A program made the translations under genes and the position numbers. This document shows positions 55,152-63,825 of a DNA stretch of 64,000 nucleotides, in pieces. How positions within the stretch are numbered: position 1 is the first letter of the stretch; the number at the start of each line of letters is the position of its first letter. Origin of the DNA: Natronomonas halophila. Its GTDB lineage: Archaea > Halobacteriota > Halobacteria > Halobacteriales > Haloarculaceae. The notes below the pieces were generated by a model that saw only the letters and a program-made list of their open reading frames with translations, searched no databases and was not told where the DNA came from. The DNA is taken from NCBI RefSeq assembly GCF_013391085.1, contig NZ_CP058334.1:2604001-2668000 (forward strand), written 5' to 3'.

Positions 55152-55280
55152 TTAGTCGTCGCTTGCCCGCTGCTCGGAGAGATGTTCCCACACTTCCGCA
55201 CACCCGCAGCCGTCTTCGACATCAGATAGGTGGTCGTCCCCCGAGCGTGCATCGTCGGTGTTCCCGTTTTTGCCAGACAT
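55152..55280 (-). CDS. 42-residue Cys-rich microprotein
   Basis: MSGKNGNTDDARSGDDHLSD, then the conserved-looking core VEDGCGCAEVWEHLSEQ. The pair CGC and a His allow possible zinc binding. I have the impression that short haloarchaeal proteins with a G-x-G/C-C-x-E-x-WEHLSE core are widespread. The ATG at 55280 comes right after an operator and a TATA box (TTATATAAA at 55314-55322, read on the minus strand), exactly the layout of the divergent SQD1-like gene. Too short for many gene callers. Confidence 0.65.
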   Translation of the reverse strand: MSGKNGNTDDARSGDDHLSDVEDGCGCAEVWEHLSEQRASDD

Positions 55281-55281
55281 A

Positions 55282-55298
55282 TACTCAGTCACTGAGTA
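55282..55298. promoter_or_regulatory. Operator 1, TACTCA-N5-TGAGTA
   Basis: TACTCAGTCACTGAGTA, a perfect inverted repeat, lies between the TATA box and ATG of the microprotein. It fits TACT-N8-GAGTA, the published motif of haloarchaeal TrmB. Its position downstream of TATA predicts repression. Confidence 0.7.
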
Positions 55299-55399
55299 AC
55301 TATTGTATCTTCTTTATATAAATGCTTTCTGCCACGTGTGTGCTCGGTTGCAAAACGTTCCGGAACCCGCTCGTACCGGCTCTCTGTGCCATGAGAAAG

Positions 55400-55406
55400 T
55401 TTTTAT
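55400..55406 (+). promoter_or_regulatory. TATA box of the SQD1-like operon
   Basis: TTTTTAT about 30 bases before the ATG at 55434, with operator 2 between them. Spacing predicts a leaderless or nearly leaderless transcript. Confidence 0.55.
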
Positions 55407-55413
55407 GCGTACT

Positions 55414-55430
55414 TACTCACTTGTTGAGTA
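55414..55430. promoter_or_regulatory. Operator 2, TACTCA-N5-TGAGTA
   Basis: TACTCACTTGTTGAGTA, inside the 19-bp inverted repeat TTACTCA-N5-TGAGTAA, ends three bases before the ATG at 55434. The half-sites and spacing equal those of operator 1, and the motif is TACT-N8-GAGTA. The region between the two operators (55299-55413) holds only the two promoters. Confidence 0.72.
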
Positions 55431-55433
55431 ACC

Positions 55434-56609
55434 ATGTCTATCTTGATAACTGGCGCGGACGGCTATATCGGCTGGCCGACCGCCCTCCGAATCGCGACGC
55501 GGACGGACGAACGAGTCGTACTGGTCGACAACTTCGGCCGGCGCGAGTGGGTCGAATCGGTCGGCTCCACGAGTGCGGTCCCCATCGCCAGCATCGACGA
55601 GCGAATCGACGCTGCCGAGGAAGTCCACGGTTGTGCGAACCTCTCCTTCGTCGAGGTTGACCTCACCGATCGGGATGCAGTCGACGAACTGCTGTCAGTT
55701 CACGAACCCTCCGTCGTCGTCCACACCGCAGCTCAGCCGTCGGCTCCCTACTCGCAAATCAACGGCGAACGGGCGAACTTCACCCAGCACAACAACATGC
55801 AGGCCACCCGGAATCTCCTGTGGGGGCTGGACACACACGATCTCAACGACACCCACTTCATCGAGACGACCACGACCGGCGTCTACGGTGCGCCTGAGTT
55901 CCCCATCCCCGAGGGGGGCGCCACGATGGAAAACCAGGGTGAGCGCGACGAGGTGCCATTCCCTGCGATGGCCGGCAGCTGGTATCACCTCAGTAAATCC
56001 CACGACGCAGCCAACATGCGGCTGGCCCACGACCAGTTCGATATCCCGATTTCGGACGTCCGGACCGCCATCACCTACGGTACGGAAACCGAGGAAACCG
56101 CGGTGGATTCGCGTCTCGCGACCCGGTTCGACTTCGACTACTACTTCGGCGTCGTCACCCACCGCTTCTGTGCTCAAGCTATCGCTGGCTACCCCATGAC
56201 CGTCTACGGGAAGGGCGAACAGCGAAAACCCTTCATCGCGCTGGAGGACGCCGTCGAGGGCCTCGCCCAGTTGGCGCTTTCCGATGCCGACGACCGACCG
56301 GACGACCACGTCGTCTACAATCAGGTCACCCGTGCCATCAGCATCGTCGAGATGGCCGAGACCATCGCGGACGTCTCCGACGAGTACGACCTCGATGTCG
56401 AGGTCGAACACTTCGAGAACCCCCGCGACGAGGACGAAACACATAAGATGGAGATCGAGAACGACCGTTACGCCGACCTCATCGGCGGCCAATCGACCAC
56501 CTTCGAGGAAGGCGTTCGCTCCATTCTCGGTACGCTCGTCGAGTACGACGACACCATCACAGCCCATGAGGACCGGTTCCTCCCCGGCGTGCTGACCGAA
56601 GATGAGTGA
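55434..56609 (+). CDS. UDP-sulfoquinovose synthase-like (SQD1/Agl3 family) enzyme
   Basis: 391 residues of the extended SDR family. N-terminal GADGYIGWPTALRI binds NAD. SQD1-specific features include TTTTGVYG (catalytic Thr), GSWYHLSKSHD (Tyr184, Lys188), AITYG, and RFDFDYYFGVVTHRFCAQA followed by YPMTVYGKGEQRKPF. SQD1 and archaeal Agl3 add sulfite to UDP-glucose to make UDP-sulfoquinovose. First gene of a four-gene operon, next to operator 2. An ordinary epimerase is the alternative, but the match in the sulfite-channel region is specific. Confidence 0.85.
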   Translation: MSILITGADGYIGWPTALRIATRTDERVVLVDNFGRREWVESVGSTSAVPIASIDERIDAAEEVHGCANLSFVEVDLTDRDAVDELLSVHEPSVVVHTAAQPSAPYSQINGERANFTQHNNMQATRNLLWGLDTHDLNDTHFIETTTTGVYGAPEFPIPEGGATMENQGERDEVPFPAMAGSWYHLSKSHDAANMRLAHDQFDIPISDVRTAITYGTETEETAVDSRLATRFDFDYYFGVVTHRFCAQAIAGYPMTVYGKGEQRKPFIALEDAVEGLAQLALSDADDRPDDHVVYNQVTRAISIVEMAETIADVSDEYDLDVEVEHFENPRDEDETHKMEIENDRYADLIGGQSTTFEEGVRSILGTLVEYDDTITAHEDRFLPGVLTEDE

Positions 56610-57585
56610 GATGATGGATGGCGACGACGGCTTGCGCATCCTCGTTACCGGCGGCTGTGGCTACATCGGCAGCGCGCTCGTCCCGCGACTCCTCGAGGAT
56701 GACCGCGTCGGCGAAGTGGTCGTCTTCGACTCGCTGACGTCGGGGTCGCCCCGTAACCTCGCCGGCTGTCTCGGCAATAATCTGCAGTTCCGCCGTGGCG
56801 ACGTCCGTGTCTACGGCGACGTCGAAAGCGCGATGCGTGGGGTCGACCGCGTCATCCACCTCGCTGCGATTACCGGCGCCGATTCCACACACGACCGCCG
56901 CGCGGAGACCTTCGCAGTCAACCGCGACGGCACCGAGAACGTCCTCACCGCCGTCCGGAAGTTCGACGTCGAGAACGTCGTCTACGCCTCTTCGTGTAAC
57001 AACTACGGGCGGGCGGCCACGACCGATATCGATGAGGAGACCGAACAGAACCCGCTGAATCCCTACGCTGAGTCGAAGGTCGAATCCGAGGAATTGCTCG
57101 CGGAAGCAGTCGACGAGTACGGTGTCGACGCGACCGCCTTGCGGATGAGCACGAACTACGGATGGGCCGCGGGCATCCGGTTCAATCTCGTGGTCAACCA
57201 CTTTGTCTTCCGCGCGCTGACCGATCGGCCGCTGACCGTCTACGGCGACGGCAGTAACTGGCGACCCTTCATCCATGTACAGGACGCCGCCCGCGCGTAC
57301 GCCGACGCCGTCCTCGATCCCGACTCGTGGCCACAGTTCGTCTACAACGTCGGTTCGAACGAAGGGAACTATCGTGTCTCCGAAATCGCCGAAATCGTCC
57401 GCGAGGAACTCGACCGCAACCTCGATATCACGTATCTGGAGGACGAACACCCCGGTCCGTCCTACCACGTCAACTTCGACCGGCTCTCTGAGACCGGCTT
57501 TTCGCCGGAGTGGACGCTCCGTGAGGGCGTTCGTGACCTTGCGAAACACCTGCAGCAATCGAACCCGGAGGTACTCGACGCATGA
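56602..57585 (+). CDS. NAD-dependent sugar epimerase/dehydratase 1
   Basis: 327 residues, extended SDR. GGCGYIGSALVPRLL binds NAD; the catalytic YxxxK is YAESK, and the usual Ser/Thr triad residue region reads ASSCNNYG. A C-terminal segment YHVNFDRLSETGFSPEW binds the UDP-sugar. It overlaps the SQD1-like gene by eight bases. It likely modifies a nucleotide sugar for the same glycan (4-epimerase or related); exact reaction not determinable. Confidence 0.86.
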   Translation: MSEMMDGDDGLRILVTGGCGYIGSALVPRLLEDDRVGEVVVFDSLTSGSPRNLAGCLGNNLQFRRGDVRVYGDVESAMRGVDRVIHLAAITGADSTHDRRAETFAVNRDGTENVLTAVRKFDVENVVYASSCNNYGRAATTDIDEETEQNPLNPYAESKVESEELLAEAVDEYGVDATALRMSTNYGWAAGIRFNLVVNHFVFRALTDRPLTVYGDGSNWRPFIHVQDAARAYADAVLDPDSWPQFVYNVGSNEGNYRVSEIAEIVREELDRNLDITYLEDEHPGPSYHVNFDRLSETGFSPEWTLREGVRDLAKHLQQSNPEVLDA

Positions 57586-58574
57586 CATCTAATGACCGAA
57601 CCGACTCCGACACGCCCACGATTGCAGTTACTGGCGCGGCCGGTTACATCGGTAGCCGTGTCGTATATCGCTTGCAGGAGACGCACCCCGACTGGAACCT
57701 TATTGCGCTGGATAACCAGTACCGCGGACAGGTCGAGTCCATCGGTGACCTCGATATCGAACACGTCGATATTCGCAACCGTAGCCGCCTCGAAGCGACG
57801 CTTGAAGGCGCGGACATCGTGATACACCTCGCCGCTGTCAGCGGCGTCGACGACTGCGAGGAGAACCAGGACCTCGCCTACGAGATAAACGTCACCGGCA
57901 CGAACAACGTCGCGTGGTTCTGCCGGAAGACCGGTGCGGCGCTGGTCTTCCCGTTCAGTATGGCGGTTCTCGGCGACCCGGAATTGTTCCCCATTACCGC
58001 CGACCTGCCGCGACGGCCGATGAACTGGTACGGCCGGACGAAACTCCTCGGCGAGGAGGCTATCGAGACTTTCGCCGAAGGCGAGTTCCCGGCCCATCTC
58101 TTCCTCAAATCCAACCTCTACGGCGAACACGTCGTCGACGGAACGACCGTCTCGAAGCCGACTGTCTTGAACTTCTTCGTCGACCGGGTTGATGCTGGTG
58201 AACCGCTGACGGTCTACGAGCCCGGCACGCAATCGCGCAACTTCATCCACGTCAAGGACGTCGCCGAGGCCTACATCGACAGCGCCGAGCGACTTCTCGA
58301 TGCGCTCGCGGAGGGTGAGACCGGCGCGACGGCCTACGAGATTGCTGGCGATGAGGACCCCTCCGTGATGGCGCTCGCCGAAACCGTCCAATCCATCGCC
58401 GAATCGGAGTACGGACTCGATGTCGAGGTGAAACTCGTCGAGAACCCGCGTGGAAACGAGACCCTCGTCGAGGATTTCACCGTCGACACGTCCCGGGCCA
58501 AGGAGGACCTCGGTTGGGAACCGACGCATACGGTCGAAGCATCTATCCGCACACTACTCGAACGCCGGGAGTAA
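57582..58574 (+). CDS. NAD-dependent sugar epimerase/dehydratase 2
   Basis: 330 residues, extended SDR. NAD-binding GAAGYIGSRVVYRL; catalytic YGRTK; but the preceding triad region is PFSMAVLG, with Met where Ser/Thr is common. The C-terminus has DTSRAKEDLGWEP. It overlaps gene 1 by four bases (ATGA). Two tandem SDR enzymes suggest successive steps (for example 4,6-dehydration then epimerisation or reduction), which is inference. Confidence 0.86.
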   Translation: MTSNDRTDSDTPTIAVTGAAGYIGSRVVYRLQETHPDWNLIALDNQYRGQVESIGDLDIEHVDIRNRSRLEATLEGADIVIHLAAVSGVDDCEENQDLAYEINVTGTNNVAWFCRKTGAALVFPFSMAVLGDPELFPITADLPRRPMNWYGRTKLLGEEAIETFAEGEFPAHLFLKSNLYGEHVVDGTTVSKPTVLNFFVDRVDAGEPLTVYEPGTQSRNFIHVKDVAEAYIDSAERLLDALAEGETGATAYEIAGDEDPSVMALAETVQSIAESEYGLDVEVKLVENPRGNETLVEDFTVDTSRAKEDLGWEPTHTVEASIRTLLERRE

Positions 58575-58593: not shown

Positions 58594-59436
58594 ATGGACT
58601 CGAACCCAGATCCGACCGATTTGCTCGAAGAACTCGACCTCAAGGAATACGAGGCGACTGCACTGGCGCATCTGCTTCGTGCGGGCCGAACGACCGCACC
58701 TGATATCGCTGAGGCGACTGGTATCCCGAAGGCGCGCATCTATGGCGTCCTCGAAGCACTCGCGGATTACGGCTTCATCGAGGTGATTCCCGGCCGACCC
58801 AAGCAGTATCAGCCAAAATCCCCTGGGGAAATATTGGAGCGCGCGAAGGAAAACCGGCGGCAAGAATTCGAGGACTACTGTCGCGAGGTAGAGGGACTTC
58901 GTTCGGAATTCCTTGACGTGTTCGGGCCGCTGTACGAGCAAGCCGACGAGGATGTCTCGCCGACTTCTGAGTTGTTCCACGTTGTCGATGTCGGCGACCC
59001 AAGCGAGACCGAAACCCGGCGGCTGTATCGAATCGCTGACGATGCTGTTTACGTGATTACGAACAGTTTCGCCTACTTCGATTCGGTTGAGCCTGCGGTT
59101 TCGAACGCGCTTGATGAGGGTATCGACGTCTCGGTGCTATTCTTGAATCCCGAGTTGCTGCCCGACGATAACGTTCCACGACAGCAGGAAATAGTGGAGC
59201 GGCTGGAGACGGACTATCCGGAAATCGACTTCCGGTTCAGCGAGAAGGTCCTGCCGTGGCGTGGAACGTTCATTGACCCGAGTATGGACTACGACTCTGG
59301 ACTGGCGATTTTCCTGGTTGAGGAAACGGATGTGCCCGACTACAAGCGCCAGGCTGCGATCACTGAGAACGGATCCTTTGTGGCCGGAATGAAGCGATAC
59401 TTCGATTTAATCTGGGAGTACGAGAGCTTCTCGTGA
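58594..59436 (+). CDS. TrmB-family sugar-responsive transcription regulator
   Basis: 280 residues. The winged helix (about 14-70, with LKEYEATALAHLLRAGRTTAPDIAEATGIPKARIYGVL) is the TrmB start, followed by a coiled helix and the TrmB sensor domain (about 120-280). Last gene of the operon begun by the SQD1-like gene (20-base gap). The operon promoter has TACT-N8-GAGTA, the motif of haloarchaeal TrmB, so autoregulation is likely. Ligand would be a sugar or sugar phosphate. Confidence 0.88.
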   Translation: MDSNPDPTDLLEELDLKEYEATALAHLLRAGRTTAPDIAEATGIPKARIYGVLEALADYGFIEVIPGRPKQYQPKSPGEILERAKENRRQEFEDYCREVEGLRSEFLDVFGPLYEQADEDVSPTSELFHVVDVGDPSETETRRLYRIADDAVYVITNSFAYFDSVEPAVSNALDEGIDVSVLFLNPELLPDDNVPRQQEIVERLETDYPEIDFRFSEKVLPWRGTFIDPSMDYDSGLAIFLVEETDVPDYKRQAAITENGSFVAGMKRYFDLIWEYESFS

Positions 59437-62376: not shown

Positions 62377-63825
62377 CTACATGTATCCGAGGTCTTCCAG
62401 CTGCTGGACTGATTGCTCATCGAGTTCGTCGGCCGTTTTGCCCCCTCGTTTTACCCCAGCGGTCTCGATGTCCGAAAACGCGGAAGCGACTTTTCCCTCC
62501 TCGTCGTTGGATTCAACCCACGCAGTCTGTGCGTCCCGTATTCTAATCGTGCGCTTCTCGTCGCGCCACGTGATGTATTTCCGGACGTCGTTCCCGCTTC
62601 CCTCGTAGACGGTTCGTGCCGTCGAGGTGAACGGAGTCAGATCGGTGACGTATTTGCTCGCTCGTTCTTGAACCGGACCATCGAGACCATGTGCTGTGGC
62701 GATGACGGGGCCTTCTGTAACGAACGCTTCTCGGTCCGTCTGCCCCTCAATCGTCGATTCGACTGCTGTCGGGAAGTCCGTCAGTGAAACGGGCTGGGAG
62801 ACGACTCGGCCGTTGGTCTGACCTGGGTGCTTCACGACGAGCGGCACATGGAGGAGAGATTCGTGAATGGCGACGCTATGGGAGGCGATTTGGGTGTCTG
62901 GACGGATACGGGACGGGTCGCCGAACCCCTCACCGTGATCTGATGTGACCACAAGGAGCGTATCGTCGAGTCCACCGCGCTCTCTCAGAGACTCAACGAG
63001 TCGTTCCAGTTCAGCGTCTAACTGCCGAATGCAACCGTCGTAGAGCGCTTCGAGCGAACTCCGCTGCCACCATGGACGCTGTCCGCCGTTGAATTCCCAT
63101 TTCACGTCCTCGATGTCGTTCTGCAGTCCCCGGAGTGTGTCGTCTCCCCAGTCGTCGAACTCCTCGTCGGGTTCGTATGGGTGGTGAGCGTCCATGTAGT
63201 TCACACAGGCGGCCCAGGGTTCATCTTGGTCTGCGGACCACTCGAGAAACAGGTCCGTATACGTCGACCCATGGGTTCCCACTGACTCCTTCGGAAGGAT
63301 ATCCGGATAATCGGACTGGAGCTTGATTGCGAGACCGTTCAATACCGACTGAATTGGTTGGCCGGATTCGAAGGCATGTCGCAGGAACTTCTGATATTCA
63401 CCCTGTCCCTCCTCAGCGACGAAGGTCGTCGGATCGGCGGCGTCGGGGAATGGGACGTTCCGTGGTCCTTCAATGTGGTCGAACGCGTCCTTGAGGCCCG
63501 TATCAATATCCGTAATCCAATTGTTCTCGGAGAAAACACCGGTCGCGTAACCTCGTTCACTGAGCGTTTCCCATATCGTGTTTCCGGGTTCGATTTTGTC
63601 CCCCGTTTTGGTAATCTCATGTTCTTCGATGTGAAGGCCAGTAAAGATACTCGCGTGGCTGTCGAGACTCCGTGCCGCAGGCGCGCGGGCGTGTTGATAT
63701 AGGGTTGCGTTCTCGGCGAAATCCTCCAAAAACGGCGTGGTACGGTTGTGGTATCCGTGTATACTCGTGTTCCGCGCTCGGACGGTATCAAGAACGACGA
63801 GCAGAACGTTCGGCGGCATGAACAT
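62377..63825 (-). CDS. Sulfatase-fold (alkaline phosphatase superfamily) enzyme without formylglycine Cys
   Basis: 482 residues. N-terminal NVLLVVLDTVRA (metal-binding Asp), DSHASIFTGL, VTSDHGEGFGDP (metal-binding Asp-His). The place of the sulfatase C/S-x-P-x-R box reads APAARSLDSHAS, with no Cys, so it should not be a formylglycine sulfatase. Phosphoglycerol/phosphoethanolamine-type transferases of this fold use Ser or Thr. No signal or membrane helix is obvious, so a cytoplasmic role is possible. Probably modifies a surface glycan. Confidence 0.82.
   Translation of the reverse strand: MFMPPNVLLVVLDTVRARNTSIHGYHNRTTPFLEDFAENATLYQHARAPAARSLDSHASIFTGLHIEEHEITKTGDKIEPGNTIWETLSERGYATGVFSENNWITDIDTGLKDAFDHIEGPRNVPFPDAADPTTFVAEEGQGEYQKFLRHAFESGQPIQSVLNGLAIKLQSDYPDILPKESVGTHGSTYTDLFLEWSADQDEPWAACVNYMDAHHPYEPDEEFDDWGDDTLRGLQNDIEDVKWEFNGGQRPWWQRSSLEALYDGCIRQLDAELERLVESLRERGGLDDTLLVVTSDHGEGFGDPSRIRPDTQIASHSVAIHESLLHVPLVVKHPGQTNGRVVSQPVSLTDFPTAVESTIEGQTDREAFVTEGPVIATAHGLDGPVQERASKYVTDLTPFTSTARTVYEGSGNDVRKYITWRDEKRTIRIRDAQTAWVESNDEEGKVASAFSDIETAGVKRGGKTADELDEQSVQQLEDLGYM

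Follow-up and report, generated by a model that had tools for sequence, protein, structure and literature searches.

Paired palindromes in a divergent promoter region of Natronomonas halophila as putative operators of a TrmB-family regulator encoded in a sugar-nucleotide operon

Two copies of a perfect palindrome in one intergenic region of Natronomonas halophila are proposed here to be the operators of a TrmB-family protein encoded by the last gene (58594–59436, plus strand) of the operon beginning at 55434. The comparison of haloarchaeal genomes described below gives this reading a probability of about 0.87. All positions refer to the window, i.e., the whole stretch of 64,000 nucleotides that was analyzed.

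Position, exactness and uniqueness of the palindromes

The first putative operator (TACTCAGTCACTGAGTA, 55282–55298, no strand assigned) covers the predicted transcription start of a small divergent ORF and ends one base from its ATG (55280–55278, minus strand), and its equivalents in other genomes are likewise placed. The second (TACTCACTTGTTGAGTA, 55414–55430, no strand assigned) covers the predicted start of the operon, three bases from the ATG at 55434 (plus strand). The initial annotation had described both as perfect inverted repeats located between the TATA box and the start codon of two divergent genes. The repeats are exact and their coordinates right, and the placement is borne out for both; the gene pair itself requires a refinement, since the right gene does start an operon and the left one is a mere 42-codon ORF. 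When the core pattern TACTCA-N5-TGAGTA was scanned with up to one mismatch over the chromosome, a complete single contig of 3,211,682 bp, just these two places were returned; about 0.04 exact sites per whole genome are expected by chance from base composition.

The operator has been refined by aligning 47 promoters of the first operon gene, a UDP-sulfoquinovose-synthase homologue (hereafter the synthase), 46 of them from regulator-bearing genomes and one from genome G087. The resulting pattern, GTTACTCR-N5-YGAGTAAC, spans 21 bp, with its core at about -20 to -4 relative to the ATG and an A+T peak at -39 to -32 that corresponds to the TATA box. In N. halophila, this peak supports the assignment of the TATA-like box of the operon promoter (TTTTTATG, 55400–55407, plus strand), and that of the small ORF (TTTATATA, 55315–55322, minus strand) has been assigned by eye. 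In archaeal promoters, transcription usually starts some 26 bases away from the TATA box; with this spacing, the predicted starts are about 55292 and 55430, each within its palindrome. A TATA box at about -26 bp has been described (PMC10817205). The layout is that of TrmB-family operators, the predicted start being covered by a 6-N5-6 palindrome in 46/46 promoters from regulator-bearing genomes.

Perfect inverted repeats beside start codons, some of them including the start codon, would also suit hairpins in leader RNA, acting by attenuation or translation control rather than as DNA bound by a protein. This explanation is extremely improbable, since the predicted transcription start lies inside the site and the full hairpin would consequently not be transcribed, and since the outer positions are nearly invariant and not merely complementary (GAGTAAC is found in 47/47 synthase promoters). 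The operator of the small ORF includes the start codon in several lineages (ATGAGTAAC, the protein beginning MSN). A model of DNA looping between the two operators was set aside because their spacing is not constant and differs by genome (89, 118, 132, 305, or 325 bp).

The refined 21-bp pattern, searched with up to two mismatches, again finds just the same two places in the genome. At three mismatches, seven other places appear versus nine for a reversed-pattern control, and the extended pattern thus gives no third site above background in N. halophila. The many unrelated motif-bearing promoters that the initial annotation had named as an argument against its own model were not found in this genome; neither was the gluconeogenic regulon that it had suggested looking for, as the scans with core and extended patterns reveal no wider regulon of any kind. 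Judged from sequence, the palindromes are real operators under selection.

Association of the site with the regulator in haloarchaeal genomes

Homologues of the regulator have been found at 25 named loci and in 80 of the 242 genomes of the class. The exact site is present in 63 of these 242 genomes, 58 of which also carry the regulator (Fisher p = 2.2e-31, a value that ignores shared ancestry). Counted per genus, 27 genera have both, nine the regulator only, three the site only, and 34 neither (p = 2.7e-9, likewise ignoring shared ancestry); presence and absence of the two are also concordant within several genera, including that of N. halophila. The association is equally clear when synthase promoters are considered: the site is found in 46/46 examined promoters from regulator-bearing genomes, always a few bases from the ATG, versus 1/12 from genomes lacking the regulator (p = 5e-11). 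The single positive among the latter, G087, has retained the site in front of the synthase with no detectable regulator and is a genuine exception. An opposite example is G220, of the same genus as N. halophila, in which the synthase is 88% identical, the regulator is absent and the site is a degenerate remnant.

The exact site is missing from 22 regulator-bearing genomes, 21 of which have the synthase. All 20 synthase promoters examined together, 16 of them from these 21 genomes, bear the site with up to two mismatches, 3–6 bases 5' of the ATG, and the promoters of the remaining five (G043, G096, G117, G136, and G208) likewise bear an inexact site; the half-site changes most often at its sixth base, from A to G. 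Where this could be checked, regulator-bearing genomes without the exact site are therefore no real exceptions. G240 is the sole regulator-bearing genome with neither a synthase nor a site near the regulator. Four genomes with the motif and no regulator (G080, G152, G174, and G150) were attributed to chance, their sites lying in unrelated places, for two of the four inside or adjacent to unrelated coding sequence; G014 has three extra exact sites, and the two that fall inside ORFs were judged likewise.

The link is retained when gene order changes. At the named Haloarcula loci, the synthase is not found nearby; the regulator and the small ORF are arranged divergently there, separated by a site with one mismatch. 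In genus g3, which is probably Haloarcula in view of these named loci, the regulator occurs together with the small ORF, and the synthase operon lies apart, at a distance of over 0.5 Mb or on a different contig; a site is present at both loci, exact before the synthase operon and with one mismatch at the regulator in most cases. In Halostella, where gene order has changed, and in genus g27, one site is common to the regulator and the small ORF, and a second one precedes the synthase. Constant to every arrangement are thus the regulator, the small ORF, the synthase, and the site.

Because site and regulator co-occur and stay linked through these rearrangements, the TrmB-family protein encoded at 58594 is the strongest candidate binder by a wide margin, and very probably the true one. 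Its connection with the palindromes, which had first been proposed for this one locus, gains from the co-occurrence over 242 genomes and holds even where the regulator is far from the operon. The N. halophila genome encodes six PF01978 proteins, i.e., five besides that at 58594, so cross-talk by a paralogue is possible. It is very unlikely that such a paralogue (for example, that at G000:C1:2603174-2603377, just beyond the window) is the main binder: related winged helices may have a common half-site, but the site tracks and adjoins the 58594-type regulator in 80 genomes with the regulator and through several gene orders.

Several other observations concern these loci. Natribaculum and a close relative have a third, one-mismatch site (L009:6934 and L065:1388), located 3' of the regulator and before a nucleotidyltransferase-like gene that by sequence resembles sugar-nucleotide pyrophosphorylases, in keeping with a sugar-nucleotide regulon. 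In G039 (L193:1053), the small ORF occurs a second time, distant from the regulator; this copy carries an exact site of its own, and a glycosyltransferase-like gene comes after it on the same strand. Among synthase promoters without the regulator, those of L126, L127, L129, and L132 have another conserved block, TGCTATCGTTCGGATCACTATCTGGTAGCA, immediately 5' of the ATG, which may serve as operator for some other regulator. In Archaeoglobi (L030:5540–5680, L031:5910–6030, and L032:5900–6030), the regulator is divergent from the synthase and other palindromes occupy the gap (ATCACCAC-N5-GTGGTAAC in L031), which suggests that the operator changed along with its regulator. Finally, the 58594 protein shares 80% identity with its Natribaculum counterpart and 60–67% with most members of its own family, and the regulator is missing from five further species of the genus of N. 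halophila; horizontal transfer probably brought in the operon along with its operators.

The regulator among TrmB-family proteins

The proposed binder of both operators has 280 amino acids and consists of a PF01978 winged helix and a PLD-like domain in a TrmBL2-like fold. PF01978 is its sole Pfam match (70.7 bits, gathering threshold 25.6) and is matched in 29/29 aligned relatives. No match to PF11495 was found in the 58594 protein at E 0.1, and the relatives give weak matches in 5/29 cases (best 4.6e-4). Against the halobacterial TrmB family (NF047392), the protein scores 44.1 bits, in the HTH region only, versus a cut-off of 500, and with the TrmBL2 family (NF041141) it reaches 43.6 bits versus 530.

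Its structure was taken from a predicted model (pLDDT 87). Compared over its full length with TrmBL2, the model gives Z 17.6 over 254 residues and an rmsd of 10.2, which is high because the domain orientation differs. To TrmB it aligns only up to residue 240; the sugar contacts of TrmB are at residues 305–326 (PMC4158304). As modeled, the 58594 protein is without the sugar-binding subdomain of TrmB. TrmBL2 of Pyrococcus furiosus (5BPD, 5BOX, and 5BQT) is both its best sequence-profile match (1e-21) and its best full-length fold match. TrmBL2 is also without this subdomain and ends after the PLD-like domain (PMC4877046), as the 58594 protein does. However, TrmBL2 has been described as an abundant chromatin protein, whereas the 58594 protein is a predicted sequence-specific operon repressor with 21% identity to it; the fold and domain layout of TrmBL2 are shared, and the protein is not its orthologue.

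Another member of the family for comparison is TrmBL1/Tgr of the Thermococcales, the operator of which, TGM, is TATCAC-N5-GTGATA (PMC4158304), and the effect of which depends on the position of the operator relative to the promoter (PMC4158304, PMC10817205). Both systems have a TrmB-family winged helix and a 17-bp palindrome with 6-bp half-sites and a 5-bp spacer. They differ in the half-site sequence and in their targets: TrmBL1/Tgr has a sugar-binding subdomain and acts on glycolysis and gluconeogenesis genes, whereas the 58594 protein is without it and has a predicted local regulon of two promoters.

A further member is TrmB itself (VNG_1451C in Halobacterium salinarum, and the Haloarcula hispanica TrmB), with which the 58594 protein has in common the PF01978 domain and the TACT half-site. 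The Halobacterium motif is TACT-N7-8-GAGTA (PMC3794607, PMC4158304), and the initial annotation had matched the palindromes to it. Both sites formally satisfy this pattern, as had been claimed, yet it is much less specific than the core: TACT-N8-GAGTA occurs at six further places in the genome, all of them without the TCA/TGA half-site core, and TACT-N7-GAGTA has no match within the 64-kb window. As a search form, TACT-N8-GAGTA was rejected for being too loose; the six extra places also resemble coding sequence (TACTTC, TACTAC). The formal match would favor a use of the sites by the global TrmB, the orthologue of Halobacterium VNG_1451C, which would tie the operon to glucose and gluconeogenesis. 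This is highly improbable, because no gene of N. halophila encodes a protein that passes the halobacterial TrmB cut-off of 500 (top scores 48 and 44 bits), the motif is absent from other promoters at the mismatch levels given above, and the presence of the site tracks the 58594-type regulator. In addition, none of the listed targets of Haloarcula hispanica TrmB is annotated as such a synthase (PMC10817205). TrmB controls a broad regulon, whereas the 58594 protein, without PF11495, has two predicted non-gluconeogenic targets. An identity with halobacterial TrmB is thus not sustained, and a glucose response, which had been suggested for both promoters, is unsupported and not to be assumed, as the 58594 protein is not the sugar-sensing TrmB.

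The controlled genes and a model of their regulation

The 58594 protein remains the preferred binder, and the genes that it would control are those of a four-gene operon on the plus strand, in which the first three overlap and the regulator follows 19 bases after the third. The synthase (55434–56609) is related to plant SQD1, with an E-value of 2.6e-66 over 374 residues, and retains the Y-x-x-x-K motif. It scores 346 bits with the UDP-sulfoquinovose synthase family (NF041015/Agl3), versus a cut-off of 575. In Agl3, Arg101 and Met145 are essential and Glu147 is important for activity (PMC4388408); the equivalents are Pro, Thr, and Val in the 55434 protein and in 29/29 compared relatives. Because these three positions are replaced, the name UDP-sulfoquinovose synthase is tentative for this enzyme, and the product of the haloarchaeal homologues may differ from UDP-sulfoquinovose. 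The second (56602–57585) and third (57582–58574) genes code for NAD-dependent epimerases/dehydratases of the sugar-nucleotide type.

The operon probably makes a sugar nucleotide for surface glycans, given that its neighbors are aglB, aglM (minus strand, 55019–53724, after the small ORF), and a flippase-like gene. The window also contains a sulfatase-like gene (62377–63825, minus strand), relatives of which, 53–54% identical, adjoin the regulator in some Haloarcula (L016 and L022, at 6837). In the literature searched, which leaves out most subscription journals, no regulator of this operon has been described, and nothing was found, within the same limits, on sulfoquinovosamine in Haloarcula hispanica.

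The divergent 42-codon ORF (MSGKNGNTDDARSGDDHLSDVEDGCGCAEVWEHLSEQRASDD, 55152–55280, minus strand) belongs to a conserved family with the core DG[CA]GCxEIWExLSExR and with no match in Pfam or NCBIfam. Its relatives (L009–L197) have about 35–50 amino acids and are always found near the regulator or the synthase. This micro-protein is a possible metal- or thiol-active partner.

The proposed mechanism is as follows. A dimer of the 58594 protein would bind GTTACTCR-N5-YGAGTAAC, the half-sites of which are separated by one turn of the helix, and would thereby cover the predicted transcription start just downstream of the TATA box and block the polymerase. Both promoters, that of the sugar-nucleotide operon and that of the divergent 42-codon gene, would be repressed, and since the regulator gene is part of the operon, it would repress itself. 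A signal related to the pathway would presumably release the regulator. Repression is the probable direction of the effect, because the operator covers the predicted transcription start, and autoregulation is a reasonable expectation, given that the operon ends with the regulator gene; the autoregulation and repression model of the initial annotation can be kept in this form. A more specific scheme, which we consider rather unlikely as a whole, is that this TrmBL2-like branch without a sugar domain is a dedicated autorepressor of haloarchaeal sugar-nucleotide operons, in which the PLD-like domain would sense a nucleotide sugar or a sulfur intermediate and the co-repressed protein of about 40 residues would act as a feedback partner.

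Defined operators are scarce for archaeal regulators outside central metabolism. Here, sequence comparison across many haloarchaeal genera supports a predicted set formed by a regulator, a 21-bp operator, and a small number of targets. This would provide a target for the branch of the TrmB family without a sugar domain and flags a conserved micro-protein family common to the regulon, and it opens the regulation of archaeal glycan precursors to direct testing, the operon being next to aglB and aglM and probably making a sugar nucleotide for surface glycans.
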